This document shows, piece by piece, positions 262 through 53,796 of a stretch of DNA of 64,000 bases. Below the pieces are notes generated by a model. It searched no databases, had not been told where the DNA came from, and was given only the letters and a program-made list of their open reading frames with translations. The translations under genes were made by a program, and so were the position numbers. The stretch lies in the IMG/VR virus record IMGVR_UViG_3300045256_000829, positions 1-64,000 of that record; one strand, written 5' to 3'. The stretch is from a virus. Positions within the stretch are counted from its first letter, which is position 1; every line of letters starts with the position of its first letter.

Positions 262-274
262 AATTCGTCACCTT

Positions 275-502: not shown

Positions 503-503
503 A

Positions 504-1680: not shown

Positions 1681-1720
1681 ATCGTCAATCTCCTTCAATG
1701 AATGTAAAGTATCGTCTTGA

Positions 1721-1770
1721 CGCTTGATAGAATAAGTGAAACGCTTGATCTATGCAATATAAATCAAGCG
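1721..1770. promoter_or_regulatory. divergent promoter/operator with three partial 18-bp sites
   Basis: Three elements fit the window-wide motif C-x-CTTG-N6-CAAG-x-G: 1721-1738 (CGCTTGATAGAATAAGTG), 1742-1759 (strong left half) and 1753-1770 (strong right half, ATCAAGCG). The first two are 21 bp apart. On the minus strand a sigma70-like promoter, TTGCAT (1757-1752), 17 bp, TATTCT (1734-1729), lies under them and would drive the gene starting at 1680. The region also lies upstream of the rightward micro-ORF at 1803. Confidence 0.6.
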
Positions 1771-1802
1771 CAGACGCAAATATTTTTACAGAGGGAGACA
1801 AG

Positions 1803-1883
1803 ATGGCATTCAGCAAGATCCACAAAGAACCATTCACTCATTACGCCTCACTGTTCGGCGATGAAATCGATCCCGACGTTTAA
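1803..1883 (+). CDS. 26-codon micro-ORF
   Basis: ATG at 1803 opens a 26-residue frame (MAFSKIHKEP...GDEIDPDV) ending TAA at 1881-1883. Support: a strong Shine-Dalgarno GAGGGAG seven bases upstream and an operator-rich region immediately before. It ends just before the convergent stop at 1887. No homologue recognised. Short length makes this tentative. Confidence 0.4.
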   Translation: MAFSKIHKEPFTHYASLFGDEIDPDV

Positions 1884-1886
1884 AAT

Positions 1887-2129
1887 TCAGGCAGCAGTCG
1901 CCGGCTGATCAGGTGGAGAGGAATGCGGATCGAGGAGAGACTCGGAGGGCTTTCGGTAAACGAACAAGCCCGCGCATTTCACGCATTGCAAGGTGTGGGT
2001 TTGCTCCGCGAGCAACACAAATCCAACGTGGAAGCCGCCGCCCTCCATTTTGCCGACATAAATCCGGCAATGAGGACAATAGCCGCGCCCATTTCTCAGT
2101 CTCAGTTTGATCGGTGAGTGATCAGGCAT
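1887..2129 (-). CDS. small zinc-ribbon protein
   Basis: An 80-residue protein with CPHC at about residue 18 and CVKC at about 48, a classic two-CxxC zinc ribbon, then a disordered, proline-rich tail (DPHSSPPDQPATAA). Role unknown. It directly follows the MuF-like head gene, with its start overlapping that gene's end, so it is transcribed with the terminase-portal operon. No terminator is obvious after it. Confidence 0.65.
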   Translation of the reverse strand: MPDHSPIKLRLRNGRGYCPHCRIYVGKMEGGGFHVGFVLLAEQTHTLQCVKCAGLFVYRKPSESLLDPHSSPPDQPATAA

Positions 2130-2772
2130 TAGCGCTCGCTCCCGCTTGAGCCGGGGCCGTAGTTGAGTATTCGATGTGGCAACGGCATCTTGTGCCGCAA
2201 TTACGATCCCCTACAGGTACAAGCGTCCCAAAGGCAACCGTCCCGCGTCCTGTCTCTTCGAGGCAACCCTGACAATGCTGCGCGCCAGGTTCGAGAATAT
2301 TCGTCTCGAATTTCGCCGTCGCGTCACGGCCGATGCGGCGTCTGAGCGCCTGCTGATAGGTTGAATAAATCGAAGCGCCATAGGACTTCGCGCGCGACAC
2401 GAAGGCGTCTGTCAGTTCGGCGTCAGCCGGGCGATTATCGATTTCAGACGCGAAGCCGTTGAAATAGGTCAACTCGCGTCTGACCGTTCCCCCGACAAAT
2501 CCCCAATCGGATGCGGCCATGTTCCCCTTACCACCCGCCGCAATCATCGCGACGGCGCGGTGACCGTTTTTTATTTCCTCGATCGAGCGTAACGCCCATT
2601 CGGCGTCATTGATTTTCTTTTCGCGCAAGTCATTGGCGATGGCTTCAAGGTTCGATGCCATACTCTTCGAGACATCGTCAATCCAGCCGCTAACGCGCGA
2701 TTGCGGTACGGCGTGGCCGTTCGATTTATAACGGTAGAGTCCCGTTTTTTTCGAGAAGACGAACTCAGGCAT
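2122..2772 (-). CDS. MuF-like head morphogenesis / minor capsid protein
   Basis: A 216-residue protein downstream of the portal gene, the usual place of the Mu gpF / SPP1 gp7 head-morphogenesis family. The C-terminal third has the family's cysteine-histidine signature: HCQGCLEE, then GDRNCGTRCRCHIEY, preceded by a helical RSIEEIKNG/FASEID region. These proteins ride into the procapsid with the portal. It is shorter than typical MuF proteins, so it may be only the core domain. Assignment rests on position plus the cysteine motif, not on an alignment. Confidence 0.65.
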   Translation of the reverse strand: MPEFVFSKKTGLYRYKSNGHAVPQSRVSGWIDDVSKSMASNLEAIANDLREKKINDAEWALRSIEEIKNGHRAVAMIAAGGKGNMAASDWGFVGGTVRRELTYFNGFASEIDNRPADAELTDAFVSRAKSYGASIYSTYQQALRRRIGRDATAKFETNILEPGAQHCQGCLEETGRGTVAFGTLVPVGDRNCGTRCRCHIEYSTTAPAQAGASANA

Positions 2773-3052
2773 TCGGTTTCTGTGAGGTTACTGGATCGCA
2801 CATCGCATAATCAGCTTTTTCGGGGAAGCTGTGATAGATCGCCCGCCCTGTCGGCGTCATTTGGACCAGACGACCTTCAGGAAGGAGAGGCCAGGGTGAT
2901 AAGACAAGCGACACGCCGCAACGCCTGCATTGTTGCTTGCCGCCTTCTTCTTTCGGCCCCGCCTCGTGAATGATTTTCACGGCTTGAGCGGCTTCGATCC
3001 CGGTCAGAGTCGGAACGACGGATTTATCTTGCTGGTCGATTTCTGATGGCAT
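2765..3052 (-). CDS. small zinc-ribbon-like protein between portal and MuF-like genes
   Basis: A 95-residue protein with QQCRRCGVSLVL near residue 42 and a single later Cys (YAMCDP). One CxxC pair is visible; a second pair is incomplete. Its start lies three bases after the portal stop and its end overlaps the next gene by 8 bp, so it is translationally coupled with portal and head gene. Function unknown. Confidence 0.65.
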   Translation of the reverse strand: MPSEIDQQDKSVVPTLTGIEAAQAVKIIHEAGPKEEGGKQQCRRCGVSLVLSPWPLLPEGRLVQMTPTGRAIYHSFPEKADYAMCDPVTSQKPNA

Positions 3053-8070: not shown

Positions 8071-8121
8071 ATTATGTGTACAGTGAAAAAAAAAGGCAAC
8101 CCATGGAAACTATGGGTTGCC
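8071..8121 (-). terminator. intrinsic terminator with possible overlapping terS promoter
   Basis: Minus-strand stem GGCAACCCAT / ATGGGTTGCC (arms 8121-8112 and 8104-8095, 7-nt loop) followed by nine U (8094-8086). It separates the 8158-8424 gene from terS. The same DNA holds TTGCCT (8099-8094), 17 bp, CATAAT (8076-8071), a plausible -35/-10 for terS, so terminator and restart promoter may overlap. The terminator is clear; the promoter is tentative. Confidence 0.8.
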
Positions 8122-8157
8122 TTACTTAGTCGATTATTCCCGCTTCACCGCTCTCAT

Positions 8158-8771: not shown

Positions 8772-8820
8772 ATTATACTCAAAGGTGAGCTTGAGTCAAG
8801 CAAATTCACCTTTGAGTATA
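8772..8820 (-). promoter_or_regulatory. strong sigma70-like promoter inside a 15-bp inverted repeat
   Basis: On the minus strand TTGACT (8799-8794), 16 bp, TATAAT (8777-8772) is a near-consensus promoter driving the gene at 8726. It is embedded in a perfect inverted repeat, TATACTCAAAGGTGA (8774-8788) and its complement (8806-8820). The -10 overlaps one arm, and the small palindrome GCTTGAGTCAAGC lies between the arms over the -35. This looks like a dedicated operator distinct from the 18-bp regulon motif, though the central CTTGAGTCAAG resembles its half-sites. Confidence 0.75.
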
Positions 8821-8864
8821 AATTATTCGGTAAATCGAAAACGAATAAAGAGCAGGGCAGGGAA

Positions 8865-14662: not shown

Positions 14663-15628
14663 TTACCGCTTGAGCGGTACGACGGCGATGTCGATGAAGG
14701 TTTGAATCTCGGGAAGACTGACTGTTTGCGCGACGATATTTTGTGTCTGCCCGAGAGGTAAATTCGCCGGCAGTTGGGAGAGGTCGATCGTGTGGAATGC
14801 GGCGCCATTCACGCCGATGAGGAAATTATTCCGCGCCGCGTCGGTGTAAATGTCGAAGTCCGCGAACGGGGAGACATTGATCGGATTCCCGTGCTGATCA
14901 ACCAGATTGCCGATCGTCTGTAACTGACCACCGCCCGTATTGCTCGATCCTGTCGCGCTGACAGACGCGATTGTGACGAAGGTGTCGAGGTCATAATCGA
15001 CCCCGTAAAAGAGGGTATTGGGCGCACCGGCGTAATTGTTCGTGTAAGCGCCGCCGCAAACGTTCGGGAACCTGCCCGCATTCACGTCGCCCGGCGCGTA
15101 GCTGAGCGAGGTTTGCACGACAGCTGTATTTGGTTCACCGCCCGGCTGCGCGCTCACAATCGCGTAGTTGTCGCCGTTTGAGCCAATGAGGCGGATGGCG
15201 TCTACCACAGGGTTAAAGTCCATCAGCGATTGAAAGCCTCCGGCGAACCGCGGCTGAAGCCCATAAACCTGATTGGCGAAGAAAGCGAATCCGAGCAAGC
15301 CGGGCGTTAGCTTGTAAAGCCTGCCCGTATCGGAGAGCGCGTAGAGCGCACCATTCGCCGGCCGATAATCAATGCCGATCAAGTTTCCGTTGACGCCTGC
15401 GGGTTTGCCGATGCCGAAGAAGCGGCCGAACTCAGCGCGATAGAGGAACATGTTGCCGCTGTCGTCGAGCGCATAGATGGCGACGCCTGCGGGGATCTTC
15501 AGGCGCGCATTTTGAGCGGTCACGCGAGCCGGGAAGAGTTCAGATGCGACCATTGCCAGACACGCGAATCCGACAAGAAGTTTGGCGATATAAATCCCAA
15601 TTTTTTGAGCGAATATCTTAAACCGCAT
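14663..15628 (-). CDS. secreted DUF4394-domain protein
   Basis: A 321-residue protein with an N-terminal signal or anchor (about residues 12-38, LLVGFACLAMVASELFPARVTAQ) and then the DUF4394 pattern: GVAIYALDDSGNMFLYRA, LIGIDYRPANGALYALSDTGRLYKL, SLMDFNPVVDAIRLIGSNGDNY, AYTNNYAGAPNTLFYGVDYDLDT, then FADFDIYTD and FHTIDL. DUF4394 proteins are bacterial secreted beta-propeller-like proteins, known mostly from cellular genomes. In a phage operon this looks like cargo or a surface-active protein. Its function is not known. Confidence 0.75.
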   Translation of the reverse strand: MRFKIFAQKIGIYIAKLLVGFACLAMVASELFPARVTAQNARLKIPAGVAIYALDDSGNMFLYRAEFGRFFGIGKPAGVNGNLIGIDYRPANGALYALSDTGRLYKLTPGLLGFAFFANQVYGLQPRFAGGFQSLMDFNPVVDAIRLIGSNGDNYAIVSAQPGGEPNTAVVQTSLSYAPGDVNAGRFPNVCGGAYTNNYAGAPNTLFYGVDYDLDTFVTIASVSATGSSNTGGGQLQTIGNLVDQHGNPINVSPFADFDIYTDAARNNFLIGVNGAAFHTIDLSQLPANLPLGQTQNIVAQTVSLPEIQTFIDIAVVPLKR

Positions 15629-15667: not shown

Positions 15668-16015
15668 TCAATTCGGGCGATCAACCTCTTTCCTGCGCTC
15701 GAAGATCCATCGGGATAAAAACAGCAAAACCTGAATAATGACTGTGCCGACGATCCAGCCGCCGAAGCTGCGAATCATTTCGATGTTGGCCTTCATCGCA
15801 CTAACCTCGTTTTGCAATACGCGTAAGTCGGCGCGCAGCTCGCCGTACTTCTTTTCGGCTTCGACTTGCCCGGAGGTTTGCTGTTGCTGAAGTTGCTCGA
15901 TCTTGTCGAGGACTGAGAGTCGAGCGGTTTGAGCGATGACGGCCCCGATCACGCACAGGGATGCGATCAGGTACGCCACCGCCAGCACTATGCCGATGTA
16001 GAATCGTCGGTTCAT
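15668..16015 (-). CDS. two-TM coiled-coil membrane protein
   Basis: A 115-residue protein: transmembrane segment at about 7-29 (IGIVLAVAYLIASLCVIGAVIA), a coiled coil at about 35-85 (VLDKIEQLQQQQTSG..., LRADLRVLQNEVSAMKANIEMI), a second TM segment at about 91-107 (IVGTVIIQVLLFLSRWI) and a basic tail. The layout fits a spanin, holin or membrane anchor. Position between an outer-membrane-like protein and the DUF4394 protein would suit envelope functions. Confidence 0.65.
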   Translation of the reverse strand: MNRRFYIGIVLAVAYLIASLCVIGAVIAQTARLSVLDKIEQLQQQQTSGQVEAEKKYGELRADLRVLQNEVSAMKANIEMIRSFGGWIVGTVIIQVLLFLSRWIFERRKEVDRPN

Positions 16016-16019: not shown

Positions 16020-16574
16020 TTACTTATCGCTACCACCCAAACGGAATTTGAACCCGACTTGATTAAGTCGCAGGTCAGGAACAGGACAGGAAGGCTGAGC
16101 CGTGTATTTCAAGCGCGTGTATTGATAGAACGGGCCGAATCCGAACCGGGCATACCTGACCAGGTCGTGATAAGCGCCAGCCTGAACGAAATTTTGCTGC
16201 CCGTAATCGGCCCAGGTATCGAGGTATTTTCCGACGTTGACCTTGACCCGGCCGAAGCCGCCAACCTCGTTACCGAACTTGAAGGCGCCGCCGCCGCCGT
16301 GAATCTCGACGAAATCCTTATAGGTGTAAACGCGCCAGGTGGCGAACGCCTGCCCGCGCGTGAGCTGGCGGGGATTCTGCTTCGATGGATCGCCGAACAC
16401 TGTGAGACCAAGTGTGACCGGCTTGATTTTTACTGAGGCGCCGATGCCGGCGAGATATTGAGTAGTGTTGGACGCGTTATCGGGAATCGCGCCAACCATA
16501 AAATCGACCTGGCCTTGAGCGAAAGCGAAAATAGGGAAAAGAAGCGCGAAGGCGAGAGCGAGAACGGGTTTCAT
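16020..16574 (-). CDS. exported, possibly outer-membrane beta-barrel protein
   Basis: A 184-residue protein with a clean signal peptide (MKPVLALAFALLFPIFAFA, cleavage after AFA-Q) and an alternating-strand body with aromatic residues (FATWRVYTYKDFVEIHGGGGAFKFG, GRVKVNVGKYLDTWADYG, FGFGPFYQYTRLKYT), ending in LNQVGFKFRLGG. An outer-membrane barrel or surface protein is plausible. It is the first gene after a promoter with operators and a leader terminator, so it heads this structural operon. Confidence 0.65.
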   Translation of the reverse strand: MKPVLALAFALLFPIFAFAQGQVDFMVGAIPDNASNTTQYLAGIGASVKIKPVTLGLTVFGDPSKQNPRQLTRGQAFATWRVYTYKDFVEIHGGGGAFKFGNEVGGFGRVKVNVGKYLDTWADYGQQNFVQAGAYHDLVRYARFGFGPFYQYTRLKYTAQPSCPVPDLRLNQVGFKFRLGGSDK

Positions 16575-16591
16575 ATTGTCTCCTTGGGAAT

Positions 16592-16618
16592 AAAAAAGCG
16601 GCGCCATTGTTGCGCCGC
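16592..16618 (-). terminator. intrinsic terminator in the leader of the 16574 operon
   Basis: Minus-strand stem GCGGCGC / GCGCCGC (16618-16612 and 16604-16598) with a 7-nt loop and a six-U tract (16597-16592). It ends 17 bp before the ATG of the next gene. A promoter with operators lies upstream (16725-16777), so it sits inside the leader as a possible attenuator as well as closing the replication operon. Confidence 0.85.
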
Positions 16619-16724
16619 ATTTACATTTTTTGGGGGTGGCAATCACCCGCTGTCTAAAGATGCTCCCAATAGCTAACCCGGATAACGTCCACCCCCAAAC
16701 TGACGATTAGCAAACAGGAGACAA

Positions 16725-16777
16725 ATCCTATCTTACCGCTTGATTTTGATCAAGTGATTCACTTGAATTATCAAGTA
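16725..16777 (-). promoter_or_regulatory. operator pair and leftward promoter within the end of the upstream gene
   Basis: Two palindromes: 16737-16756 (CGCTTG-N8-CAAGTG) and 16760-16777 (CACTTGAATTATCAAGTA), start spacing 23 bp. Minus-strand TTGATC (16753-16748), 17 bp, TAGGAT (16730-16725) gives a plausible promoter overlapping the first site. The sites lie in the last codons of the 16728-17417 gene. The transcript would pass the terminator at 16592-16618 before reaching the 16574 gene. Confidence 0.6.
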
Positions 16778-17417
16778 TCTCGCCGAGAGGAATATCATCC
16801 CCGGCTTTATCGGCGAATTCGATTAGCGCCTGCGCTTGCGCTTCGAGTTCGGACGTGTCGTATTTCAGGGCTTTGGCCATATCCTGAGCAATATACAGCT
16901 TTGGCCGACTTACCTCCTTAACGAAGCCGAGAAACAAATGAGGCGCGGCTTTTTCGAATCGGGCCACATCGATCGAAATGAATTGGGTAAGCCCATGACG
17001 CACAAGATATTCAAGCGCAAGGTTTGGATCATACTCCAGCGACTTTTGCGCCTTAACCTCAGCGCAAGGCGTCAGACGCGCCGCGTTGTCGCCGTTCTCG
17101 AATCGGAGTCTGCGAAGCAAAAGGCAGGAATTTTCATAACGCTCGCGCGCCTGCGAGCATTCATTGTTGAGAGCGCCCATTTGCTTGCGCAATCCGGCAT
17201 TTTCGCGACTAGCCTCATCCACCACGGCTTCAATGCGCGCCTTGTAGGTCGTTAGCACGCGATCGTAAAGGAATCGCGTGCGGAGATACGCCATCTCCTG
17301 TTCCCGAACAATCTCAGTCGCCTCATCGATGAGTTCCTTCATCTCTTGCGGCGACTTAAACAAGTCTTCGGTCAAAACCTCCGCTTTCGTTTCGAGTGTT
17401 TTTTCTTCAACTGCCAT
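16728..17417 (-). CDS. hypothetical coiled-coil protein
   Basis: A 229-residue protein, start MAVEEKTLETKAEV after an AAAGGAAAG site. Helical throughout (SPQEMKELIDEATEIVREQEMAYLRTRF..., VVDEASRENAGLRKQMGALNNECSQARERYENSC), then a more globular FGI-like C-terminal part (EYLVRHGLTQFISIDVARFEKAAPHLFLGFVKEVSRPKLYI). Not recognised. It is last in the replication operon; its final codons carry operator sites. Confidence 0.65.
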   Translation of the reverse strand: MAVEEKTLETKAEVLTEDLFKSPQEMKELIDEATEIVREQEMAYLRTRFLYDRVLTTYKARIEAVVDEASRENAGLRKQMGALNNECSQARERYENSCLLLRRLRFENGDNAARLTPCAEVKAQKSLEYDPNLALEYLVRHGLTQFISIDVARFEKAAPHLFLGFVKEVSRPKLYIAQDMAKALKYDTSELEAQAQALIEFADKAGDDIPLGEILDNSSESLDQNQAVR

Positions 17418-17827
17418 AACTGCTTTCCTTTCCAGTTGTGGCCGCGCTTGCTTTTGCGCCCGCGACCGGTTTCGAGTATTTCGATGCCCCATACGGCAAG
17501 CATCAATTTCTTCGTCAGGATGAATTCACGGGTTCGACAACCCTTCCAGTCTTCGACTACCTCCTTTCCAGTTCTGCGATCAAAATATACAAAGTCGGCG
17601 TGATAGGTTTTGACTAGGTAGCCGTCAAACTCGATACGGTAGGGGACTTGCCGGCGCAAATCTGAAATCTCGCCGGCGAGTTCGAGGACGAGTAATTCAT
17701 CGTTACGATCGGCTTCGCCAGTTGACCTGAACCAAATTCCGTTACGACGAACCGGCTTATTGCGGTACTTGTTCGTCTTCTCGCTTGCCTGAAGTTCTCT
17801 CAATTCTGCAACGGTGATGCGTTCCAT
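17372..17827 (-). CDS. DUF1064-type PD-(D/E)XK nuclease
   Basis: A 151-residue protein. After a helical start it shows KYRNKPVRRNGIWFRSTGEADR, then LELAGEISDLRRQVPYRIEFDGYLVKTYHADFVYFDR, then KEVVEDWKGCRTREFILTKKLMLAVWGIEIL and a basic tail. E-x-R at the front, D in YHADFVYF and E-x-W-K make the PD-(D/E)XK core seen in phage DUF1064 proteins, thought to act as Holliday-junction or recombination nucleases. It overlaps the next gene by 46 bp and sits in the replication operon, which fits. Confidence 0.75.
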   Translation of the reverse strand: MERITVAELRELQASEKTNKYRNKPVRRNGIWFRSTGEADRNDELLVLELAGEISDLRRQVPYRIEFDGYLVKTYHADFVYFDRRTGKEVVEDWKGCRTREFILTKKLMLAVWGIEILETGRGRKSKRGHNWKGKQLWQLKKKHSKRKRRF

Positions 17828-17925: not shown

Positions 17926-19647
17926 TTACCCTTGCGGGCAACCTGATCGCAGGGTTTTGTTTGGCCGCGAATAAACCTGATTAACCGAAGGGGTTGTTCC
18001 GCGAATCTTCCCCTTTTTACGATTGGCGCTCGCACCGAGAATCGCCGTCACCAACGCTTTCGCCAACTGAACCGGGACGGCGTTCCCGATTTGTTTGACT
18101 TGTTGCTCGCGGTTGCCGAGAAAGACGTATGAACGGGGAAACGACATTGCCGCCGCGAGTTCGCGCGGCAACAACATTCGATAAAGAATATCGAGAAGAA
18201 AATATCCATTGCCCTCTTTAAAATTCGGAACAGCAAGCGCGAATCTATCTTTCGATGTTACGGTGTCCAACGGTTCATCAATACTGATGGCGTTCGCCGT
18301 TCCGTTGTATTTAACGAGATAAGGAGTAACGAGACTCAGATATTCGCGCGCGAGTATTGTATTGAGAGGTTCACTTACGCCCCGCGCCTTAATTTCGGGG
18401 CCTCCACTGTTGATGATAAAGGGTTCGATTAGTCCCCAAGCGTCAACGCTGGTCACTGTAGGGAAAGGCGAGTCCAGCTTGTATGGGGGTCTGTCATCTT
18501 TTCCGTGATTAGCTGCAATCACGAACGGTTCGACCAACCCAAAGCGATTACTCGTGTCTAAAGTTGAGAGCGGTTTATCAACGCTAAAGCTTCGACCGTC
18601 TCCGTCTTTACGGTTTGCATGACTACCGTTATAACGAACTATAAACGGCTCGCAGAGCATGTGATGCGTCCCTTGGGCGCAAATCGTGCTCGGGGGTTGG
18701 TCAACAGATTGCGGAATGTTGTTATTCCTGAGTGTGACAACATAGGGCTCGCAAAGGCCGATACCCCTGCTGGTTGTCGTAATTGTCTGCAACGGATTCT
18801 CGACCGAACGCGGCACGCCGCCAGAAAGTTGCGGAACGATGAATGGCAAACCTGAACACTTTTGCAAGCCGATGAAGATTTTCCGGAGCGTGTTCGGAGA
18901 GAGCGGTTTCTTGCGATTAAATATGCTCTCGCCTTTGATCGACCAGTCGATAATTTCGCGCGTGGTCCGGTAAGGCTGCATTTGTGCACTGGGGAACAAA
19001 GAAGAGTTTTCGGATTTTTCGAGCGCCGCGCAATGTGTGGGAGTTGGCCAAACGATTGGTTTACCGTCGCGCCGCGCCTGAATGAATAGACGTTCACGCG
19101 AAGTCGGATCGCCGTAATCAGTCGCGCGCAGTTTCTTCCAGCTCACTTTATAGCCAAGGCTTTCAAGATTATTGACCCACGATATAAATGTCTCGCCTTT
19201 CTGCTTCGGATCGGGAACCCATTCGAGTTTTCCCTTGATCCGCTTCCGAATCAGCGGACCCCAGGTAAGAAAGGCGGGAACGTTCTCGACGAGGATCGCT
19301 TTTGGCAAGACAGCTTCCGCCCAACGAATTGCACACCAGGCCGTTGCCCGACTTTGATCATTAACCGGGCGGCCGCCTCGGGCGTTCGAAAAATGCGTAC
19401 ATTCCGGTGAGGCTACAAGGAGGTCGAGCTTGCCGATTTCGACCAATTCGCGCGGGTTGATCAATTCGATATTCGCGCAAAGGTGTTTAGCGTCCGGGTG
19501 ATTTGCCGAATGAGTTTCGATCGCCTTATCCCAATGGTTGATGGCTATCAGATTGAGCTTATAACCGAGACTCTCGCACGCCTCAGCCGCGCCCGTGGAC
19601 GTTCCCCCAGCCCCACAAAATAAGTCTACGAGGTTAAACGTTTTCAT
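17926..19647 (-). CDS. dcm: DNA (cytosine-5) methyltransferase with repeated insert
   Basis: Transfers a methyl group from S-adenosylmethionine to C5 of cytosine. 573 residues. Motif I DLFCGAGGTSTG (8-19), the catalytic loop as ASPECTHFS (Cys83; Glu replaces the usual second Pro), motif VI ENVP (121-124), motif VIII RERLFI (184-189), and motifs IX-X RELAAAMSFP and KQIGNAVPVQLAKAL near the end. Between about 270 and 475 lies an insert of six or so repeats of the pattern EPF-[VI]-...-V-[DE]-x-P-L-x-T. The start is the ATG at 19647; there is no restriction gene beside it. Likely self-protection against host restriction. Confidence 0.9.
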   Translation of the reverse strand: MKTFNLVDLFCGAGGTSTGAAEACESLGYKLNLIAINHWDKAIETHSANHPDAKHLCANIELINPRELVEIGKLDLLVASPECTHFSNARGGRPVNDQSRATAWCAIRWAEAVLPKAILVENVPAFLTWGPLIRKRIKGKLEWVPDPKQKGETFISWVNNLESLGYKVSWKKLRATDYGDPTSRERLFIQARRDGKPIVWPTPTHCAALEKSENSSLFPSAQMQPYRTTREIIDWSIKGESIFNRKKPLSPNTLRKIFIGLQKCSGLPFIVPQLSGGVPRSVENPLQTITTTSRGIGLCEPYVVTLRNNNIPQSVDQPPSTICAQGTHHMLCEPFIVRYNGSHANRKDGDGRSFSVDKPLSTLDTSNRFGLVEPFVIAANHGKDDRPPYKLDSPFPTVTSVDAWGLIEPFIINSGGPEIKARGVSEPLNTILAREYLSLVTPYLVKYNGTANAISIDEPLDTVTSKDRFALAVPNFKEGNGYFLLDILYRMLLPRELAAAMSFPRSYVFLGNREQQVKQIGNAVPVQLAKALVTAILGASANRKKGKIRGTTPSVNQVYSRPNKTLRSGCPQG

Positions 19648-19665
19648 CTTGTTCAATCGCCTCTA

Positions 19666-20126: not shown

Positions 20127-20378
20127 TCATATCACCCCCTTTTCTTTCAGGTGATTGATCAACGTTTCAATCGTGAAAGTATTTGCCAGGTTGGCGCATG
20201 GCGAGGTTCCGAGGATGAAGCGCACGCCGGGAACATTTGCGTCTTTAAGCGCTCGGGACACGTCAAACATTGACCCTTGCACGTTGTAATAACCGTGGTC
20301 AGCAACCACCTGCACGACCTCAACCTCAATATCTTCACGTCGAAAAATCCGGTCAGGAAATCCCTTCAATCTGTTCAT
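20127..20378 (-). CDS. hypothetical protein sharing its N-terminus with its neighbour
   Basis: An 83-residue protein. Residues 1-17 (MNRLKGFPDRIFRREDI) repeat the start of the cupin-like protein. The rest (VEVVQVVADHGYYNVQGSMFDVSRALKDANVPGVRFILG) has no recognised family. The start overlaps the upstream stop (ATGA). Confidence 0.65.
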   Translation of the reverse strand: MNRLKGFPDRIFRREDIEVEVVQVVADHGYYNVQGSMFDVSRALKDANVPGVRFILGTSPCANLANTFTIETLINHLKEKGVI

Positions 20379-20381
20379 TGC
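20328..20381 (-). repeat. 54-bp direct repeat, copy B
   Basis: The partner of 20056-20109, 272 bp away in the same orientation. Differences cluster in the third quarter (ATTTTTT against ATCCCTT). It encodes the shared leader peptide MNRLK-x3-DRIFRREDI. Confidence 0.85.
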
Positions 20382-20764
20382 GATTCCCCCTTCTTTTCGA
20401 AATCGCGCGGAACGAACAAACGAGAGTTGAATTGCTTGTCTCCCGTTTCTTTGAAGGAAACGTATGCCCCGTGTTGCCACCGCTTCACCTTGGCAATCGT
20501 GTAAATCGCATCACGCGTTAGATGGCGATCGGCATATATGGCGTCCGCCTGCGCTCTTTCTGGCGCCGCATATTTGACTTGAACGCCTCGACTGAGCGGC
20601 GCAACACAGATGCGGCAACCCGGCAGATCGATGACCTTATCGGTATGTACGTGGTATTCATCCTTCCAGCGATTACCGCAAAAAGAGCAAACGAAATCCA
20701 CGATATGCCTTTCATCAGGTAACGCGCTAATTGTCGACTCTTCTTCTCGTTTAGTGTTTTTCAT
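20375..20764 (-). CDS. hypothetical zinc-finger protein
   Basis: A 129-residue protein with FVCSFCGNRWKDEYHVHTDKVIDLPGCRICVAP: two CxxC pairs about 25 residues apart, a zinc ribbon. The C-terminal part (DAIYADRHLTRDAIYTIAKVKRWQHGAYVSF) is basic and mixed. Start overlaps the upstream stop. Role unknown; it lies in the replication operon. Confidence 0.65.
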   Translation of the reverse strand: MKNTKREEESTISALPDERHIVDFVCSFCGNRWKDEYHVHTDKVIDLPGCRICVAPLSRGVQVKYAAPERAQADAIYADRHLTRDAIYTIAKVKRWQHGAYVSFKETGDKQFNSRLFVPRDFEKKGESQ

Positions 20765-21213
20765 TTCCCGTTCACCGCCTTTTTATTGGCTTCTTCGAGA
20801 AACTGAGGCAGGACGCAAACGTCGGCGCGATTGCCGTATTGCGTTTCGCGTTGAAGATCCGATACGGCAATCGCCTCGACGGCTTTCAATTCGGAGAATC
20901 GCGCGGAAGCCGAAGCAATCGGGATGCTAAGAAGGCGCGCGGCTTCGTGAGCAATCAACCCGAGAGCGCCGCGATCGAATAACAGATCAAGAATGCGCTG
21001 TTGCTGCCTCGTGAAATGATCCTTGTTTTTCTCGTATGCCGCCTCGCTGCGCGCGTTCCCCTTATGGCGATTTTTTGTAATGTCGCCGCCAGTCTTACCC
21101 GGTTTGCGGCGCTGCTTTTGCTCAGACTGGCGCTCATGCTGAGTGTTTTCTTTGAGCTTCTTTTCGGGTTTCTCTTTCGGTGTAAGATTCGCAAACAATC
21201 CGTCACTTTGCAT
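20761..21213 (-). CDS. winged-helix-like DNA-binding protein
   Basis: A 150-residue protein. The N-terminal 65 residues are disordered and charged. The C-terminal part reads RQQQRILDLLFDRGALGLIAHEAARLLSIPIASASARFSELKAVEAIAVSD, a winged-helix/MarR-like pattern (helix 2 IAHEAARLLSI, recognition helix ASASARFSELKA). The ATG at 21213 follows GGGAGA; a TTG start further up would run through the operator at 21221-21259. Phage versions of this layout act in replication or regulation. Confidence 0.65.
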   Translation of the reverse strand: MQSDGLFANLTPKEKPEKKLKENTQHERQSEQKQRRKPGKTGGDITKNRHKGNARSEAAYEKNKDHFTRQQQRILDLLFDRGALGLIAHEAARLLSIPIASASARFSELKAVEAIAVSDLQRETQYGNRADVCVLPQFLEEANKKAVNGK

Positions 21214-21275: not shown

Positions 21276-21722
21276 TTAGTAGTTGGGTTCCCAAAGAAGT
21301 TTTTGACCTGTCGGATGATTATCAACACGCGGACGCCTTTTCCGATTCCAGGTCCCGCCGCGCGACTCTGCGACTACCCTCCAATTAGCGGCTGAGAGAC
21401 TGACTCCAGATTCCGATTTCAGCGTATAAGTGATGATCCTCTTGTAACCGAGCGCCCTGCCCGCCTTGACTAATGCTCCGTAAAGCTTACTCGCTACATT
21501 TTGCGTATGATCTGTACAGCAACGAGTAATTTCGAGGGTCCAGCCATCATCAAACAACCTCGCGAGAGGTTTGCCAGCCATCGCGACGCCGACTATTTTC
21601 TCCCCGTCATTCACGGCCACCCCAAACACCCATCCACTCGGGGCGCGATGATGACTGTGATTCTTATTGATGAACCGTTGCGCCTCTTTAAACGTGATTG
21701 GTTGTAATTCGAGTTTGGCCAT
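21276..21722 (-). CDS. XF1762-family (GNAT-like) protein
   Basis: A 148-residue protein with the XF1762 pattern: ITFKEAQRFINKNHSHHRAPSGWVFGVAVNDGEKIVGVAMAGKP, DDGWTLEITRCCTD, NVASKLYGALVKAGRALGYKRIITYTL, ESGVSLSAANWRVVAESRGGTWNRKRRPRVD. The family is common in phages beside replication genes and resembles N-acetyltransferases; substrate unknown. The start at 21722 overlaps the previous gene by 35 bp. Confidence 0.85.
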   Translation of the reverse strand: MAKLELQPITFKEAQRFINKNHSHHRAPSGWVFGVAVNDGEKIVGVAMAGKPLARLFDDGWTLEITRCCTDHTQNVASKLYGALVKAGRALGYKRIITYTLKSESGVSLSAANWRVVAESRGGTWNRKRRPRVDNHPTGQKLLWEPNY

Positions 21723-24123
21723 AATTACGCCCCGCCGCGGCAAAGAGTGGCGTTTGCTCTTTCTCCATCTCTGCGCGGTCGCGTAGCGCACGCTTGAAGT
21801 TGTCTTGCGAGGTTTTCCAGTAAGAGCGTTTCAGTTCAATCCCCAGGTATTGACGATCAAGCAAGAGCGCCATCACGCCGGCGCTGCCGATCCCGTTGAA
21901 CGGCGAAGCGACAAGATCGCCGGGCGCCGACCAAAGCTTGATGGCCCGCTCGCAAACGGAGAGTTGCAGCGGGCAGAGGTGGCGAGCGTCTTCAGGTTCT
22001 TTGGCTATGGCTGTGTTGAGAACGTCTGTTTCCATGATTCCGTTGTAGACAACAAGGCCATCAGCTTTATGGCGTAAGTGGTGCGATGCCTGATGTAATG
22101 CTGGATAACTCGGCTGAATATCCGCGCTCTTTCCATCTGAAGTTAGATGCCGATACCAAACGGGCGCGGCCCATTCAATCCATTCATTCTCAGTAATCCA
22201 ACCATTCGCATTCTCGTAACGGGCAACCCGGCCAGCCCGTATCTTCTTCGGATTCTCGCCAGGCTTGCGGAAAATCAAGAGATAATCAGCGAGCGCCGGA
22301 CGCGTGAGTCCGGAATCAGTCGCCAGGGTTTTAAACAGCAAGCCGCGCTCTTTCGTGCGCGCCGCCTTAACCTGTGGATTTTTATCAATCGTCACTTCAC
22401 CTGTATAAATCCACCCTTCTTCCTCGAAGAGGTTGATAACCCTACCGCGAAAATCCTTCAATCCGATGTACCCATCCTGTGATTTCTGCGCTGGAACCTG
22501 ACAGAGATGAACCGCAGCCGTCCGCCCTGGCATCGTCGCGCGCAACATACCCGGCAACAGGAAACGAAAATGCTCGATCATTTGGCCGATCGATTCGCAA
22601 TTCCCGATGTCGCGCGCCGAATTCGAATAGGCGTACATACCGGGGAAGGGGGGAGAGAAAACCCAAAGGCCGACAGAATCCTTCTCGACGCGATCAATCA
22701 ATTTGACCGAGTCTCCCAGATGAAGCGTCCAGCCTTCGCCGCGCGCCGTCTCTTCCTTGTATTCGGCTTCCTCGTGTTTCGTGCGGCCCGTGCGACTCAG
22801 CTGCTTGATGGTTTGTTTCTTCATGGCTTCAACTGACTCCCTCATAAGTTCGGCGTGTTGATCTTCTTTGCGGCGAATGTTCGAAAGGATCGATCCCTCG
22901 GCTTCACTCGCAACGTGATATGCGACGACTTCGCGTTTCTGACCGAAACGCCAGAGGCGACGCGTCGCTTGATATAGTTCCTCAAAGCTATCCGACAATC
23001 CGACGAAAGCCATACGGGCGCAATGCTGCCAGTTCAACCCGAAACCAAAAATTTTCGGTTTTGTAATCATGATCTGAACATCTCCCTCCCTCCAGGCGAG
23101 TTCATATTCAATCCGCTTATCGTATGGAGTAGAACCAGAAATTGACACAGCATCACTTCCAAAGGCTTTCTCAAGAGCATCCTGCTCAGCATCAAGATTG
23201 CACCAAATCACCCATTTCTCTTTTTCAACGATCTGGGATTCGCCATAAATCAGTCTCCTGCATACTTCAACTCTTTCATGCAAGCTATCTTTTTTAGCCG
23301 TGCGCCGCTCTTTCAGCGTCTTCGCCTCCGTGGCGAACAGCATCCCGTCGAGCGGCTTCGAATTGACCGTGATTTGCTCAACGCGCAACGGCGGCAAGAG
23401 GTAACCCTCGTCGGAGTAGCCAAGATCGGAAGGCTTTTCGATTGCGACCGCCCAGGAGGCCAGCCAGTTGAAAAAATCCTTCCTCGCGTGATCACGCAGC
23501 TTCCATTTATGCGTGGTATTGCCGTCTTGCTTGAAATATAGGGCGATGATTTCCTTGCCGTTCATCACGTCAAGGAATTCGGCGTGATTGATAATTTCGA
23601 TCAGGTCATTAGGGGAAGGTGTAGCCGTGCAAGCAAGACGGAAGTTTATACCGCGGGCGAATTCATTGACTTGCCTTCTGATGACACCCTCGAAAGACTT
23701 CATAATCGAAGATTCATCACAGCAGATCCCGCCGAACACGTCAGGATCGAAGCGATGAAGCTTTTCGTAGTTCGTAACGTTCACGCCGATCGTGACATCG
23801 TCCATCGTTTCGCAAACTGTCACGGGAATGCCGAACTTCTTGCCCTCGCGCTCTGTCTGTCCGGTAACGGCCAGCGGCGCAAGCGTCAGCGTCGGCTTAC
23901 CAGTGTGCGCTATGACGTGCCGTTGCCATTCGAGATGCATTCCAGTTTTCCCCATCCCGCAACCAGCAAGGATCGCGGCCCGGCCCTTCTTGATCGCCCA
24001 GCGCGTTATGTCACGTTGAAAAGGGAAGAGAACCTTGTTGATCTTATTCGGCGCAACATCGAAGCCAGCTTCCGGCGCCACTATTCGTTTACTGTTGAGA
24101 AAATTATCGTAGTTACTTGTCAT
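21688..24123 (-). CDS. SNF2-like helicase fused to DNA methyltransferase
   Basis: One 811-residue chain with two enzymes. Residues 1-440 are a superfamily-2 helicase: Walker A GCGMGKT (54-60), DEAH-type box CDES (135-138), motif III TATP (166-169) and motif VI QATRRLWRFGQ (385-395). Residues 465-780 are a beta-class (motif IV first) DNA amino-methyltransferase: SPPF (490-493) and the SAM loop PFNGIGS (741-747); SPPF suggests N4-cytosine or N6-adenine. An ATG at 24123 is preferred; the longer TTG frame runs through the operator pair. Likely role: remodel or restrict-evade DNA during replication. The fusion is uncommon. Confidence 0.87.
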   Translation of the reverse strand: MTSNYDNFLNSKRIVAPEAGFDVAPNKINKVLFPFQRDITRWAIKKGRAAILAGCGMGKTGMHLEWQRHVIAHTGKPTLTLAPLAVTGQTEREGKKFGIPVTVCETMDDVTIGVNVTNYEKLHRFDPDVFGGICCDESSIMKSFEGVIRRQVNEFARGINFRLACTATPSPNDLIEIINHAEFLDVMNGKEIIALYFKQDGNTTHKWKLRDHARKDFFNWLASWAVAIEKPSDLGYSDEGYLLPPLRVEQITVNSKPLDGMLFATEAKTLKERRTAKKDSLHERVEVCRRLIYGESQIVEKEKWVIWCNLDAEQDALEKAFGSDAVSISGSTPYDKRIEYELAWREGDVQIMITKPKIFGFGLNWQHCARMAFVGLSDSFEELYQATRRLWRFGQKREVVAYHVASEAEGSILSNIRRKEDQHAELMRESVEAMKKQTIKQLSRTGRTKHEEAEYKEETARGEGWTLHLGDSVKLIDRVEKDSVGLWVFSPPFPGMYAYSNSARDIGNCESIGQMIEHFRFLLPGMLRATMPGRTAAVHLCQVPAQKSQDGYIGLKDFRGRVINLFEEEGWIYTGEVTIDKNPQVKAARTKERGLLFKTLATDSGLTRPALADYLLIFRKPGENPKKIRAGRVARYENANGWITENEWIEWAAPVWYRHLTSDGKSADIQPSYPALHQASHHLRHKADGLVVYNGIMETDVLNTAIAKEPEDARHLCPLQLSVCERAIKLWSAPGDLVASPFNGIGSAGVMALLLDRQYLGIELKRSYWKTSQDNFKRALRDRAEMEKEQTPLFAAAGRNYGQTRITTNHV

Positions 24124-24910: not shown

Positions 24911-25799
24911 CGTCTTTACCTTTCTTTGCAGTTTTGTATTCAGTTAAAGCGTATTTCGTGAACGTTGCGAATCTGTTGCAAAGATCCGCGAGCGTCCGAT
25001 GCGCGATTTCACTCGCGAAATAATTATCCAGGGCGGTTGTGAAAAGACTTTCAGGGAGGTCGTTCTTGTAGAGCTTGATAAGCTTCGCGAGGTGAATAAA
25101 GTCAGCCTTTTTCCGATTGTACGGTTGCCCGTAAGCTTCAGGCGCCTCATAACGAACCCTGAAGAGTTCATACAGGAATTTTTGCTGAGCGGAAATCGAC
25201 GGCCCCTCTTCTACGAGCGGAACGCGAGTAGAAGTATTTTTACTTTTTTTATTAATATTTTTCTCTATATTGATGTTTCTCTGTCCAACAGAGAATTGAT
25301 TCTCTGTTGGACAGAGAATTGCCGCTCTGTTGGACAGAGAATTGATTCTCTGTTGGACAGAGAATTGATTCTCTGTTGGACAGAGAATTGAATCGGGGTT
25401 TTTGGTGCGCTTTTCCGCCCTGGCTAGTCGGGCTTTCTCGGTTTTAGATCTATTCTCGACGATGCGTTCGGCTGCAAAATGCTCGCGACTCTCCCAAAGT
25501 TCGTCAAGCTTTTCTCGATTGATCCTGTAAGCGTAAATCGGCGGGGAATCGACAAGTACGGCATCTATAACGCCCAAGTCGCACAGCGTCTTTCTTGCCG
25601 TTGCTTGCTCGGATCGTGTCAACCCGGTCGCTTTCCTGATCTGTTCGACATTGCGCTTGATCCAACCCTCTTCATTCGGCGACCAATAAAAGAGCTGACA
25701 AAACAGCATCGTCGCGGACCCTGTTTTAAGTATTTCGGAAAGTGAAGGGTAGTAAACGACTACCTGCCCGAGATTATCCAGGGCGTCTGTTAACTTCAT
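24840..25799 (-). CDS. O-like replication initiator, contains the origin
   Basis: A 319-residue protein. The N-terminal 110 residues form a winged-helix domain (SEILKTGSATMLFCQLFYWSPNEEGWIKRNVEQIRKATGLTRSEQATARKTLCDLGVI), as in phage replication initiators of the lambda O / replisome-organiser type. A linker (residues about 137-180) is encoded by the iterons. The C-terminal domain (SAQQKFLYELFRVRYEAPEAYGQPYNRKKADF...) should contact the loader. Start MKLTDALDN chosen for its GAGAGG site. First gene of the leftward replication operon. Confidence 0.87.
   Translation of the reverse strand: MKLTDALDNLGQVVVYYPSLSEILKTGSATMLFCQLFYWSPNEEGWIKRNVEQIRKATGLTRSEQATARKTLCDLGVIDAVLVDSPPIYAYRINREKLDELWESREHFAAERIVENRSKTEKARLARAEKRTKNPDSILCPTENQFSVQQRINSLSNRAAILCPTENQFSVGQRNINIEKNINKKSKNTSTRVPLVEEGPSISAQQKFLYELFRVRYEAPEAYGQPYNRKKADFIHLAKLIKLYKNDLPESLFTTALDNYFASEIAHRTLADLCNRFATFTKYALTEYKTAKKGKDDGKSSNSSQYSSESMSLFGAEVI
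25233..25277. other. AT-rich DNA-unwinding element
   Basis: About 45 bp, AT-rich (TATTTTTACTTTTTTTATTA and on), directly beside the iteron array. It is strikingly richer in A/T than its surroundings. In lambda-type origins such a tract next to the initiator sites is where strands first open. Confidence 0.75.
25278..25392. repeat. origin of replication: five 23-bp iterons
   Basis: Units start at 25278, 25301, 25324, 25347 and 25370, an exact 23-bp period. Each has a 17-bp palindromic core, TCTCTGTTGGACAGAGA, followed by ATTGAT, ATTGCC or ATTGAA; the first unit has the core inverted in its centre (CCAA instead of TTGG). The array lies inside the initiator gene, as in lambda O. Because 23 is not a multiple of three, the protein passes through all three frames of the repeat. 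Confidence 0.9.
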
Positions 25800-25844: not shown

Positions 25845-25900
25845 TTGATACGGTAAAACGCTTGATTTATCAAGCGGCTCGATACTTTACCGCCCAAGCG
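25845..25900. promoter_or_regulatory. immunity operator region between repressor and replication operon
   Basis: Site 1, 25859-25876, is the best copy of the motif: CGCTTGATTTATCAAGCG, perfect outside its central two bases. Site 2, 25883-25900 (TACTTTACCGCCCAAGCG), is weaker; spacing 24 bp. The leftward promoter TTGATA (25873-25868), 17 bp, TATCAA (25850-25845) has its -35 inside site 1. The repressor gene starts at 25921, with no ribosome site before its ATG, so a leaderless transcript like lambda cI is possible. Confidence 0.8.
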
Positions 25901-25920: not shown

Positions 25921-26349
25921 ATGAAAACCAGCGGGCGCGACAATCTAGCTCGACTAATTAAGCGGCTAAGGCTAGAAAAGGATCTATCCCTTGCCCAGGT
26001 CGAGTCAAATTCCGGTGGACGGATCACGAATGGCCATTTAAGTAGAATTGAAAATGGTCACAGTGAAAACCTAACCACCGATCGATTGGAGGCGATCGCG
26101 GACGGTTTACAAGTATCTCCCTTGAAACTCTGTGAGGCTTTGTTCGGAGTTACAGCCCCAAAAGATCCGAACGAGGAAGAATTGATCTTGATGTATCGAT
26201 CAATGACCGACGCCGCTAAGCCGTTCCTCTTGCTAATAGCTCGCGCGTTCCGAGTTTATCGGGCGGATGTTCTTGAGCACGAAAACATACGCGGGAACGT
26301 AGACGAGCAAATTGAGAAAGTGAAAACGAAAAAGAAAGCGTCAAAATAA
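25921..26349 (+). CDS. XRE-family phage repressor (DNA-binding subunit)
   Basis: A 142-residue protein. Residues 9-70 form a classic XRE helix-turn-helix (LARLIKRLRLEKDLSLAQVESNSGGRITNGHLSRIENGHSENLTTDRLEAIADGLQV). A helical tail follows (EEELILMYRSMTDAAKPFLLLIARAFRVY) and a lysine-rich end. It lacks the S24 peptidase domain of CI/LexA repressors. Its position, divergent to the replication operon and adjacent to the best operator, makes it the probable immunity repressor. Which protein binds the 18-bp motif is inferred, not shown. Confidence 0.85.
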   Translation: MKTSGRDNLARLIKRLRLEKDLSLAQVESNSGGRITNGHLSRIENGHSENLTTDRLEAIADGLQVSPLKLCEALFGVTAPKDPNEEELILMYRSMTDAAKPFLLLIARAFRVYRADVLEHENIRGNVDEQIEKVKTKKKASK

Positions 26350-29604: not shown

Positions 29605-29780
29605 TTGCGCCCTCCCTTGGGTGCGGCTGGCGCAAACATTTTACGAATCAATAAGCGCGCGTTGCGCTGTTCGATTCCGCGCTGAGCTTGCTTGCGCGCG
29701 ACCGCCTGCTCCCAGGTTTCGTTTGCGGGGGCGTTTTTCGCGCCCCCGGTTGTTTCTTGTTTCGTCTCTTTTTCTTTCAA
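29601..29780 (-). CDS. small basic protein, TTG start proposed
   Basis: A 59-residue protein (LKEKETKQETTGG...QAVARKQAQRGIEQRNARLLIRKMFAPAAPKGGRK), very basic, probably nucleic-acid associated or disordered. I propose a TTG start at 29780 because AAGGGAA lies a few bases upstream and the alternative TTG at 29801 lies inside the operator. The true start is uncertain. Confidence 0.45.
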   Translation of the reverse strand: MKEKETKQETTGGAKNAPANETWEQAVARKQAQRGIEQRNARLLIRKMFAPAAPKGGRK

Positions 29781-45709: not shown

Positions 45710-45740
45710 AAAAAAACGCCCGCGTCAGTTCGACGCGGGC
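45710..45740 (-). terminator. intrinsic terminator after the tail tube gene
   Basis: Stem GCCCGCGTC / GACGCGGGC (45718-45726, 45732-45740), 5-nt loop, seven U (45716-45710). Located between the tube gene and the chaperone; followed at once by CAATGAGGG, the chaperone's ribosome site. Partial read-through would give more tube than chaperone. Confidence 0.9.
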
Positions 45741-45781
45741 AACCAATCCATCCGTTGAGAAGAAGAAGATGCGCTGAACCG

Positions 45782-48443: not shown

Positions 48444-48476
48444 AAAAAAGAGGGACGGAACGCCCGTCCCGTCCCT
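48444..48476 (-). terminator. intrinsic terminator after the capsid gene
   Basis: Stem AGGGACG / CGTCCCT (48451-48457, 48470-48476), loop rich in GC with alternative pairing, and a six-U tract (48449-48444). Immediately followed by the next ribosome site, in the same CAATGAGGG context as at 45710. It would limit read-through from the abundant capsid gene. Confidence 0.8.
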
Positions 48477-50295: not shown

Positions 50296-51609
50296 TTAGC
50301 CGCCGAATGCCGACTTCGGCGCGAGTTGAAGCGCCGGGGAATCTTTGGGCGCAGCCGGAGCTTCCTGTTTCTCTTCCACTGGCGCGGAATCTTCTGTTTG
50401 ACGACCGGAGGGCAGCAGGGAAGTGGCGCGGCCAGCCCAATCCGCGCGCATTTGTTTGATATGCTCAATGTCCGCCGCTTCGAGCATCGCGCGATAGGTT
50501 TCGGCTTTGAAATCGTTGCCCCAAATCCTGACACCTTCTTTCAACGCTTCCTCGATCAGATCGGCGCGATAAGTGCGTCCCGTGCGCGCAAGAGAGACAA
50601 TCTCGCGAAGGCCAGTCGCGAGGTCAGTCGTCGTGACGCCGGCGTCTTTCAGGGCAGCCTCAACAGACGAACGAACAGCGGTGAGGTCAGGATCGACGGA
50701 CTGCGAGGGATTTGATTGCGGCGCGTCCCCCGCAGTCCGGGACTCCGTTCCAGGCAAAGTGGCGGGCGCGCTCACCTGCGTAGGAACAGAATTCGATTTA
50801 TCGTTTCGCTGAGTCATAAGTCCTTCCTTTTCTCCGTACCCTGACCAGAACCGATCAAGCCCAGGGATAGGCGCGCCGCGATAAGCGGTTCGAATTGAGT
50901 TTGCAATTTCGGGTTTCATTCGGCCCGCTTCGATGTCGCGCGTAGCCTTGAGAATCCCGCAGCCGGGTGTAGCCCCGTCGTAAACAATGGAAACTTCCGA
51001 AAGGTGGGCGTCTTCGATCCAAGCGATTGCGACTTCTTCGCGAACCGCAACCACCTCGCCTTTTTCGTTGCGGTCTTCGACGGAATAAGTCACGCCAGGG
51101 AAGTGCCAGCAATCCCAATCAAAGAGGTCAAGGCCGCAAATCGAGCAACGGAATTCGCCGCCGTGAAAGCCGATCGATACGTCGCGAGCGATCCCGGCGC
51201 GCATCTTCACCAAAAACGATTCGGTGTCATCCAAGCCGGAAATCGTGAAGATGTCCGAAGTTACTCTGACGATGTCGCCGGATTCTGTGTATTGACCCGA
51301 GAGAGTTGCGCCGAGGCCAAGCTGGCGCGTGATGTGCGAATTCTGGAAACTGACACCCGCCTCGGAATCTTTGGCGTAATTCTGAAGCGACGACGGCGCC
51401 ATTCGCGTGAAATACGCATCCAGGCGATTGTTCGAAATCTCAGCCGCGAAGAAATAAGGGGCGTTGGTTTCGAAAATCGCAGGGTCATGCGCGCGTTCTT
51501 TCGCCCGCTGCATCAGCGTTTCATCGTTTGCGCCCGACGCGGTATTCATCAATCGGGTAAGCAATCGAGCCGGGTGCGCAAAAATGTCAGTCGGAGAGTA
51601 AGAACGCAT
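50296..51609 (-). CDS. prohead protease with scaffold-like C-terminus
   Basis: A 437-residue protein. Residues 70-230 look like a phage prohead protease: FFAAEISNNRLDAYFTRMAPSSLQNYAKDSEAGVSFQNSH, MRAGIARDVSIGFHGGEFRCSICGLDLFDWDCWHFPG (with a zinc-like C-x2-C...C) and IEDAHLSEVSIVYDGATPG (the ...EVS-V... active-site strand). The C-terminal 190 residues are Ser/Pro/Gln-rich with helices (LEAADIEHIKQMRADWAGR), as in fused scaffold domains. Its ATG at 51609 is directly after a leader terminator and no ribosome site is obvious. Confidence 0.75.
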   Translation of the reverse strand: MRSYSPTDIFAHPARLLTRLMNTASGANDETLMQRAKERAHDPAIFETNAPYFFAAEISNNRLDAYFTRMAPSSLQNYAKDSEAGVSFQNSHITRQLGLGATLSGQYTESGDIVRVTSDIFTISGLDDTESFLVKMRAGIARDVSIGFHGGEFRCSICGLDLFDWDCWHFPGVTYSVEDRNEKGEVVAVREEVAIAWIEDAHLSEVSIVYDGATPGCGILKATRDIEAGRMKPEIANSIRTAYRGAPIPGLDRFWSGYGEKEGLMTQRNDKSNSVPTQVSAPATLPGTESRTAGDAPQSNPSQSVDPDLTAVRSSVEAALKDAGVTTTDLATGLREIVSLARTGRTYRADLIEEALKEGVRIWGNDFKAETYRAMLEAADIEHIKQMRADWAGRATSLLPSGRQTEDSAPVEEKQEAPAAPKDSPALQLAPKSAFGG

Positions 51610-51642
51610 AAAAATAAAAGCCCGCAAGATTTACTTGCAGGC
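51610..51642 (-). terminator. leader terminator of the head operon
   Basis: Minus-strand stem GCC-x-GCAAG / CTTGC-x-GGC (51634-51642 and 51620-51628, one mismatch), loop ATTTA, then UUUUAUUUUU (51619-51610) and the protease ATG. The promoter at 51720-51748 reads through it, so it is a candidate attenuator. Confidence 0.75.
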
Positions 51643-51705
51643 TTCGCCAATTCCTGAAGAGATGTTCGGCCTTACCGAACCGCGAAATAATTATCATCCC
51701 AAATT

Positions 51706-51748
51706 CACTTGACGCGCGAAGTAAAGCACTTGTTCAAAACAGTGTCAA
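51706..51748 (-). promoter_or_regulatory. head-operon promoter with two operators
   Basis: TTGACA (51748-51743), 17 bp, TTTACT (51725-51720) on the minus strand is a good sigma70-type promoter. Motif sites 51706-51723 (CACTTGACGCGCGAAGTA) and 51727-51744 (CACTTGTTCAAAACAGTG), exactly 21 bp apart, cover the spacer and -10. Confidence 0.7.
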
Positions 51749-51814
51749 GTAGTATGCTCAATTTTGTCTGAAGGGGGTCAATCTCGCGGCTGAGGAGTCG
51801 GTCGTGGGGGAGAC

Positions 51815-51860
51815 AAAGAAACGCCGCAAACTTGTATGAGGGAGTTTGCGGCGTTTCTTT
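51815..51860. terminator. 17-bp-stem terminator, probably bidirectional
   Basis: Perfect stem AAAGAAACGCCGCAAAC / GTTTGCGGCGTTTCTTT (51815-51831, 51844-51860) with a 12-nt loop. On the plus strand it is followed by TTATTT, on the minus by TTTGTCT. It separates the 52229-51861 early gene from the head-operon promoter. Confidence 0.85.
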
Positions 51861-53076: not shown

Positions 53077-53116
53077 GGTTGCTCCGTGTAAAACTTTACC
53101 TGGTATTGCATAGGCT

Positions 53117-53677: not shown

Positions 53678-53796
53678 TATGAACCTCCATTCTAATACTG
53701 TGGTTTGTTCTGATTGTGATTTGCCGGTGTTTTTCTCCTTTAGTCCGATTCAAAAGGGGTGGACTTTTTCTTTGTGTTCTGTACTTTGCTTTACAA

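Follow-up and report, generated by a model that had tools for sequence, protein, structure and literature searches.

Two leftward late operons of an uncultured temperate phage, starting at 16.7 kb and 51.7 kb, appear to be built alike: a sigma70-type promoter, predicted to be controlled by a repressor, is followed by a leader of ~100-130 nt, an intrinsic terminator and the first gene. The preferred reading, given a probability of about 0.5, is that late control resembles that at lambda pR'/tR', with a CI-like repressor blocking initiation and some factor licensing read-through. In the lysogen, the CI-like repressor would bind at the late promoters and keep them off. After induction, polymerases would initiate, terminate by default within the leader and release a short transcript; a phage factor may then modify polymerase near the promoter, allowing it to pass the leader terminator and the later terminators of the operon.

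The window, i.e., the whole 64,000-nt stretch of DNA that was analysed, covers most of an IMG/VR virus record of 67,502 bases. The record is, as read from its predicted genes, a temperate phage, with a CI-like repressor, a replication initiator O, a helicase loader, an integrase, a terminase, a portal, a capsid and tail genes. The genes on which the argument turns are the following.

25921..26349, plus strand: CI-like repressor (HTH_3), presumed to bind the operators
16728..17492, minus strand: P0001, directly upstream of the 16753 promoter (the position of Q in lambda), with a coiled coil and no family
16020..16574, minus strand: P0002, first gene of the 16.7-kb operon, with a signal peptide and no family
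15668..16015, minus strand: P0003, second gene of the 16.7-kb operon, a membrane protein with a coiled coil
14663..15628, minus strand: third gene of the 16.7-kb operon, a secreted DUF4394 protein (E 3e-38)
50296..51609, minus strand: g437, first head gene, 437 aa, its ATG adjoining the end of the U tract

After these first three genes the 16.7-kb operon continues into tail genes, and its next strict terminator is found only at 8121. An earlier, sequence-only reading of this DNA had called it a structural operon, a name that suits the tail genes farther on but not the first three genes (secreted, membrane and secreted DUF4394 proteins). P0002 is likely a secreted protein rich in beta strands. 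Structure models of P0001 (pLDDT 56) and P0002 (pLDDT 33) were too poor for use, and a PDB fold search with P0001 returned no significant match. No homologues were found of P0001 in IMG/VR, GTDB genomes or phage GenBank, of P0002 in IMG/VR or phage GenBank, or of the flanking gene P0005 in phage GenBank, and no DNA relatives of the 16.7-kb region were found in phage records. As the genes flanking the 16.7-kb leader had no relatives in the collections searched, comparison of this leader was impossible.

Several other features of the window were observed. Direct repeats of ~23 bp (CTCTGTCCAACAGAGAATTGATT) at 25277-25390, within the O-like replication gene, resemble the iterons of lambda ori. A Mom-like DNA modification protein (21276-21791), a C5 cytosine methylase (17926-19656) and a PAPS-reductase-like protein (62154-63434) probably constitute DNA modification equipment. 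The portal side (1-3052) and the head genes (51609-64000) are kept apart by 15 kb or more of sequence that contains the integrase.

Terminators of the late operons

Terminators were sought with a strict scan that asked for a perfect stem of 7 bp or more with 5 or more GC pairs, and for 6 or more T in 8; it was used in place of a loose scan that barely exceeded shuffled sequence. The strict scan of the window returned 10 rows, representing ~9 sites, whereas 30 dinucleotide shuffles averaged 1.0 and never gave more than 3. Six terminators lay on the minus strand (51853, 51642, 48475, 45741, 16618 and 8121), each of them after the end of one gene and before the ATG of the next.

About 16592..16618 (sequence to 16590), minus strand: leader terminator of the 16.7-kb late operon, with its stem at 16618-16598 and its U tract at 16597-16592
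51617..51645, minus strand: leader terminator of the head operon, from the strict scan
51815..51860, both strands: bidirectional terminator upstream of the head promoter, from the strict scan
48451..48476, minus strand: terminator after the major capsid gene and before the next ATG, from the strict scan
45717..45741, minus strand: terminator after a tail-tube-like gene (a label guessed from position) and before the next ATG, from the strict scan
8093..8123, minus strand: terminator before the gene that immediately precedes the one for the terminase large subunit, from the strict scan

The leader terminator at 16618 is real, with very high confidence, and lies far beyond chance: GCGGCGC-AACAATG-GCGCCGC, a 7-bp stem made entirely of GC pairs around a 7-nt loop, is followed by TTTTTTATT. 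The ATG at 16574 stands ~18 nt past its U tract, with the Shine-Dalgarno sequence AAGGAGA in between, so that the earlier description of a strong terminator whose U tract ends just before the first ATG stood up to the scan. The head-operon ATG (51609) adjoins the U tract and lacks a Shine-Dalgarno sequence. Because both U tracts lie so near the start codons at 16574 and 51609, transcripts of either gene that start upstream must cross a terminator.

Further terminators lie within the operons, giving 51645, 48475 and 45741 in the head operon and 16618 and 8121 in the 16.7-kb operon. For conjugation operons, internal terminators have been described as a good sign of processive antitermination (PMC8955417), and on that precedent their presence in both late operons would point to licensed read-through. 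It is also conceivable, though rather unlikely, that the terminators serve as leaky insulators, ending upstream operons and damping early read-through while the late promoter leaks enough for expression with no antiterminator. The 16618 site is indeed the first strict terminator past a long early operon, and those at 48475, past the capsid gene, and at 45741, past the tail-tube-like gene, resemble ordinary setting of expression levels. However, an insulator would be better placed upstream of the promoter, where the head operon of the window already has the terminator at 51815-51860.

Two other sites of the window were observed beside these. The gene between the 8121 terminator and the terminase large subunit probably encodes the small subunit. 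A strong plus-strand terminator at 29726-29748 lies beside an operator at 29788 and is oriented against the genes there.

Promoters, operators and leader RNAs

Promoters were scored with an E. coli sigma70 model, which may not be that of the host, and operators with a motif built from the window's own sites.

16725..16753, minus strand: candidate promoter TTGATC-17-TAGGAT, best of its region, with 8/12 consensus bases
51720..51748, minus strand: head-operon promoter TTGACA-17-TTTACT, rank 2 in the window
16761..16776, no strand: strong operator ACTTGAATTATCAAGT, 16 bp, score 22.9, among the best
16739..16754, no strand: second, irregular dyad CTTGATTTTGATCAAG (CTTGAT-CAAA-ATCAAG), covering the -35 and the spacer, below the operator threshold
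51707..51750, no strand: three operator half-sites around the head promoter, weaker than the 16.7-kb operator
25860..25875, no strand: operator of the divergent repressor/replication-initiator region, from the operator scan

The head promoter at 51748 is held to be real with high confidence, the 16753 promoter with moderate confidence. The latter was present at 16753-16725 as first described, but with 8 of 12 consensus bases it ranks only 78th among all window positions; since its score is moderate and is equalled or exceeded by ~12% of 230-nt windows, it is supported mainly by the overlapping operator. From its -10 to the terminator stem there are 106 nt, in agreement with the ~100 bp first estimated. 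The best promoter of the window, TTGACT-16-TATAAT (8799), was observed elsewhere, in a perfect 16-bp inverted repeat (8772-8821) before an 81-aa gene, and with the 8121 terminator it looks like a self-contained cassette within the late operon.

The operator motif is a 16-bp palindrome, RCTTGA-N4-TCAAGY. Twelve sites have a score of 14 or more, where shuffles give 0.1; this score is not independent of the sites from which the motif was built, but the plain palindrome pattern is enriched as well (18 vs 6.75). Most operators stand where genes begin, the divergent repressor/O region among these places, and they often consist of a full site and a half site 21 bp apart; the tandem-operator pattern was not found in IMG/VR. 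The operator at 16761-16776, which falls in the 3' end of P0001 (17492-16728), is real with very high confidence. Two operators had been proposed here, of which this one is strong, whereas the dyad at 16739-16754 is irregular and has a wider half-site spacing. In a comparison made post hoc, with the data already seen, a strict terminator stood between operator and first gene only at the two late promoters, the record having roughly a dozen operator sites.

The same order of elements had been claimed for the head operon at 51.7 kb; this was confirmed, with a far better promoter, weaker operator half-sites and no Shine-Dalgarno sequence. The architecture of the two operons had further been called identical, which applies to the order of the elements but not to their sequence. 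Local alignment of the two window leaders was no better than that of shuffles, and operator half-sites were the only DNA element that the two promoters had in common; the dyads over the -35 and spacer may be operators.

The 16.7-kb leader carries three elements of possible regulatory interest.

16629..16699, minus strand: leader hairpin UUUGGGGGUGG / CCACCCCCAAA, with 11 perfect pairs in the outer stem and an inner 8-bp stem (z -4.3 for the hairpin region)
16716..16724, minus strand: leader 5' segment TTGTCTCCT, a perfect 9-bp complement of the first gene's Shine-Dalgarno region (chance ~0.003)
16576..16584, minus strand: Shine-Dalgarno region AGGAGACAA of the first gene, pairing with the leader 5' segment

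Such elements could act in cis by attenuation, in which the leader would refold on a ligand, a ribosome or a protein, and TTGTCTCCT would pair with AGGAGACAA to shut off translation too. This is considered very improbable. The perfect complement and the 11-bp hairpin speak for it, but the pairing was found post hoc and one further gene also reaches 9 bp, the predicted folds show no alternative helix that breaks the terminator stem, and the head leader has neither the complement nor the hairpin.

The strong folding of the 16.7-kb leader (z -4.8 with its terminator) would also suit a small-RNA gene, whose promoter and terminator make a stable regulatory RNA of ~100-190 nt, the late genes being served by occasional read-through, or the unit having both functions. 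A precedent is provided by StxS, the short RNA of the pR'-tR' region of Stx phages (PMC7873438). That the leaders exist for this reason is nevertheless improbable, as the window's head leader shows no unusual folding once its terminator is left out (z -0.3), and the leaders have no match in Rfam.

Components of known antitermination systems were sought as well. No Q- or N-type antiterminator was found among the predicted genes, P0001 included, by comparison with Pfam and PHROGs, which upholds the earlier remark that no such gene is obvious. A search for boxA (at least 7/9) in the leaders gave a single chance-like match, inside the 16.6-kb terminator tail. A put-type RNA of two stem-loops near the promoter was absent, with a single hairpin in the 16.7-kb leader and nothing comparable in the head leader, and no conAn- or canT-like gene or RNA was identified. 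P0001 is a candidate for the licensing factor by position only, in the place of Q. Further candidates are a winged-helix-like protein (20761-21213), a zinc-ribbon-like protein (20375-20764) and P0005.

The head junction in related phages

The head junction could be compared across relatives. Capsid alignment (A2) yielded 80 loci, and 33 relative loci had enough upstream sequence. In these, 6 of 9 distinct strict sense terminators fell within -700..+60 of the g437 start, an interval set around the window's own site and a count that includes two loci (L034 and L044) with a head terminator and no good promoter. A seventh (L048) lay a little upstream of that interval, between portal and g437. A head promoter without a strict terminator is seen in many relatives (e.g. 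L027, L029, L045 and L050).

Where both elements occur, the promoters score well. L014, L018 and L041 carry TTGACA-17/18-TATACT, 71-145 nt from the stem, as the single best promoter on the contig strand; L017 has TTGACA-18-TATGAT at rank 1, with a terminator containing one mismatch; and the head promoter just upstream of the terminator has rank 4 on its strand in L033 and is in the top 3 in the window. The promoter-to-stem distance is 60-145 nt in the L014/L017/L018, L033 and L041 lineages, and likewise in the window. These four lineages, the window included, have 40-55% capsid identity. On this comparison of sequences, promoter, leader, terminator and head gene are with high confidence a recurrent arrangement in this phage group, and its recurrence at the orthologous junction of distant relatives is what regulated read-through would predict. 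That the head promoter is owed solely to the split of the late cluster (the 67-52 kb block) was rejected, as relatives whose portal and head genes lie near each other have the promoter too.

The leaders themselves differ. Between the head promoter and leader terminator of L014 (3976-4140) and L018 (3951-4121), whose capsids are 77% identical, a conserved three-way-junction RNA was observed, CCUGGC..GGUGAAAGUC..CCAUGC..GUGUAGAC..GAGUCUCUAGCC..GCCAGG, with compensatory changes (in two sequences only) and no Rfam match. Its exact pattern occurs in IMG/VR and GTDB in those two records and in one chance match (L094). L017, equally close to L014 and L018, combines a promoter and a terminator of the same kind with a short leader that has little structure. 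A second unit of promoter, strongly folded RNA and terminator was observed in the portal/head junction of contig G007 (L100 14707-14931), with no Rfam match. The covarying RNA and the G007 unit, at 14.9 kb, are the kind of evidence expected of small-RNA genes, but the short L017 leader is not. The constant parts across relatives are the promoter and the terminator, not the leader RNA. The lack of a leader element common to the window cassettes, together with L017, which lacks its relatives' leader RNA, hints that the recognition signal lies in promoter DNA and not in leader RNA.

Portal and g437 are 2.4 to 11.5 kb apart in relatives, a variability that marks the junction as an insertion hot spot for accessory genes. 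Insulation would be useful at such a site, a point in favour of the leaky-insulator explanation. Against this, there is an additional terminator downstream of the promoter in the window's head operon, and likewise in L014, L017, L018, L033 and L041. There are two further observations: in L034 (3520-3735), a small protein of 71 aa, by eye of the LuxR-type HTH kind, is encoded immediately before the head terminator, and an integrase-core transposase fragment resembling IS3-type elements is encoded at the right end of the record (L004 3993-4502), so that the record would end in an insertion element or host DNA.

The suggestion of an antiterminator or attenuator, made from the two window operons, gains partial support from the architecture found in both and from the recurrence of the head version in relatives, the antiterminator itself being putative. 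For licensed read-through, a more specific form can be proposed tentatively: that a processive antitermination system unlike Q, N, put and conAn in sequence licenses late transcription in this uncultured temperate phage family, acting at the late promoters and passing leader terminators whose position before the head genes is conserved across ~40-55% capsid identity. If true, lambda-style licensed read-through of late genes would extend to a broad uncultured phage group without recognisable Q, N or put, and the promoter-terminator cassettes would be a ready-made bait, as leader reporters, for finding the factor.

Comparison with known systems

The gene order in lambda is nin-Q-pR'-tR', and lambda pR' is not under CI control. 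The window has a matching order: a resolvase gene, an unknown gene, the promoter, the terminator and the late genes. As in the lambda pR'/6S/tR'/Q system, the end of the early genes (a predicted resolvase gene and one more) is followed directly by a late promoter, a short leader, an intrinsic terminator and late genes, and the product made by default would be a short RNA. Promoter, short leader and terminator precede late genes in both window operons and at the head junction of relatives. The system differs from lambda in having repressor operators at the late promoters, two separate late operons, no common Q-binding element that could be found and no Q homologue; beside the promoter, no Q gene of a known family was found with Pfam and PHROGs or, on a poor model, by the fold search with P0001. 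The boxA of the lambda N/nut system was not found in the leaders beyond the chance-like match, and the comparison does not support placing the system in any known Q, N, put or conAn family.

The put RNA of HK022 is ~70 nt long and has two stem-loops (PMC9378689). Common to the two systems would be a promoter-proximal structured RNA that precedes terminators, with no phage protein recognisable; they differ in that here one leader has one long hairpin, the other is little structured, and the two have no sequence in common. The conAn/canT systems of conjugative elements (PMC8955417, PMC11658703) likewise comprise a large operon with several internal intrinsic terminators, as found here, and control from the promoter end, but the operons here are phage late operons and not conjugation operons, and no conAn- or canT-like component was found.

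Cluster A mycobacteriophages have one repressor and many operators or stoperators dispersed across the genome (PMC9283540). Many genome-wide sites for one repressor, here a presumed one, are a point of likeness; the operators of the window are palindromes of 16 bp that mostly stand where genes begin, whereas stoperators are asymmetric sites within transcription units that stop elongation, an arrangement not found among the operators here. In Stx phages, the pR'-tR' region is transcribed constitutively and terminated in the lysogen, and the resulting short RNA, StxS, can have a function of its own (PMC7873438); the window, as predicted from its letters, has a putative RNA in the same place, between late promoter and leader terminator.
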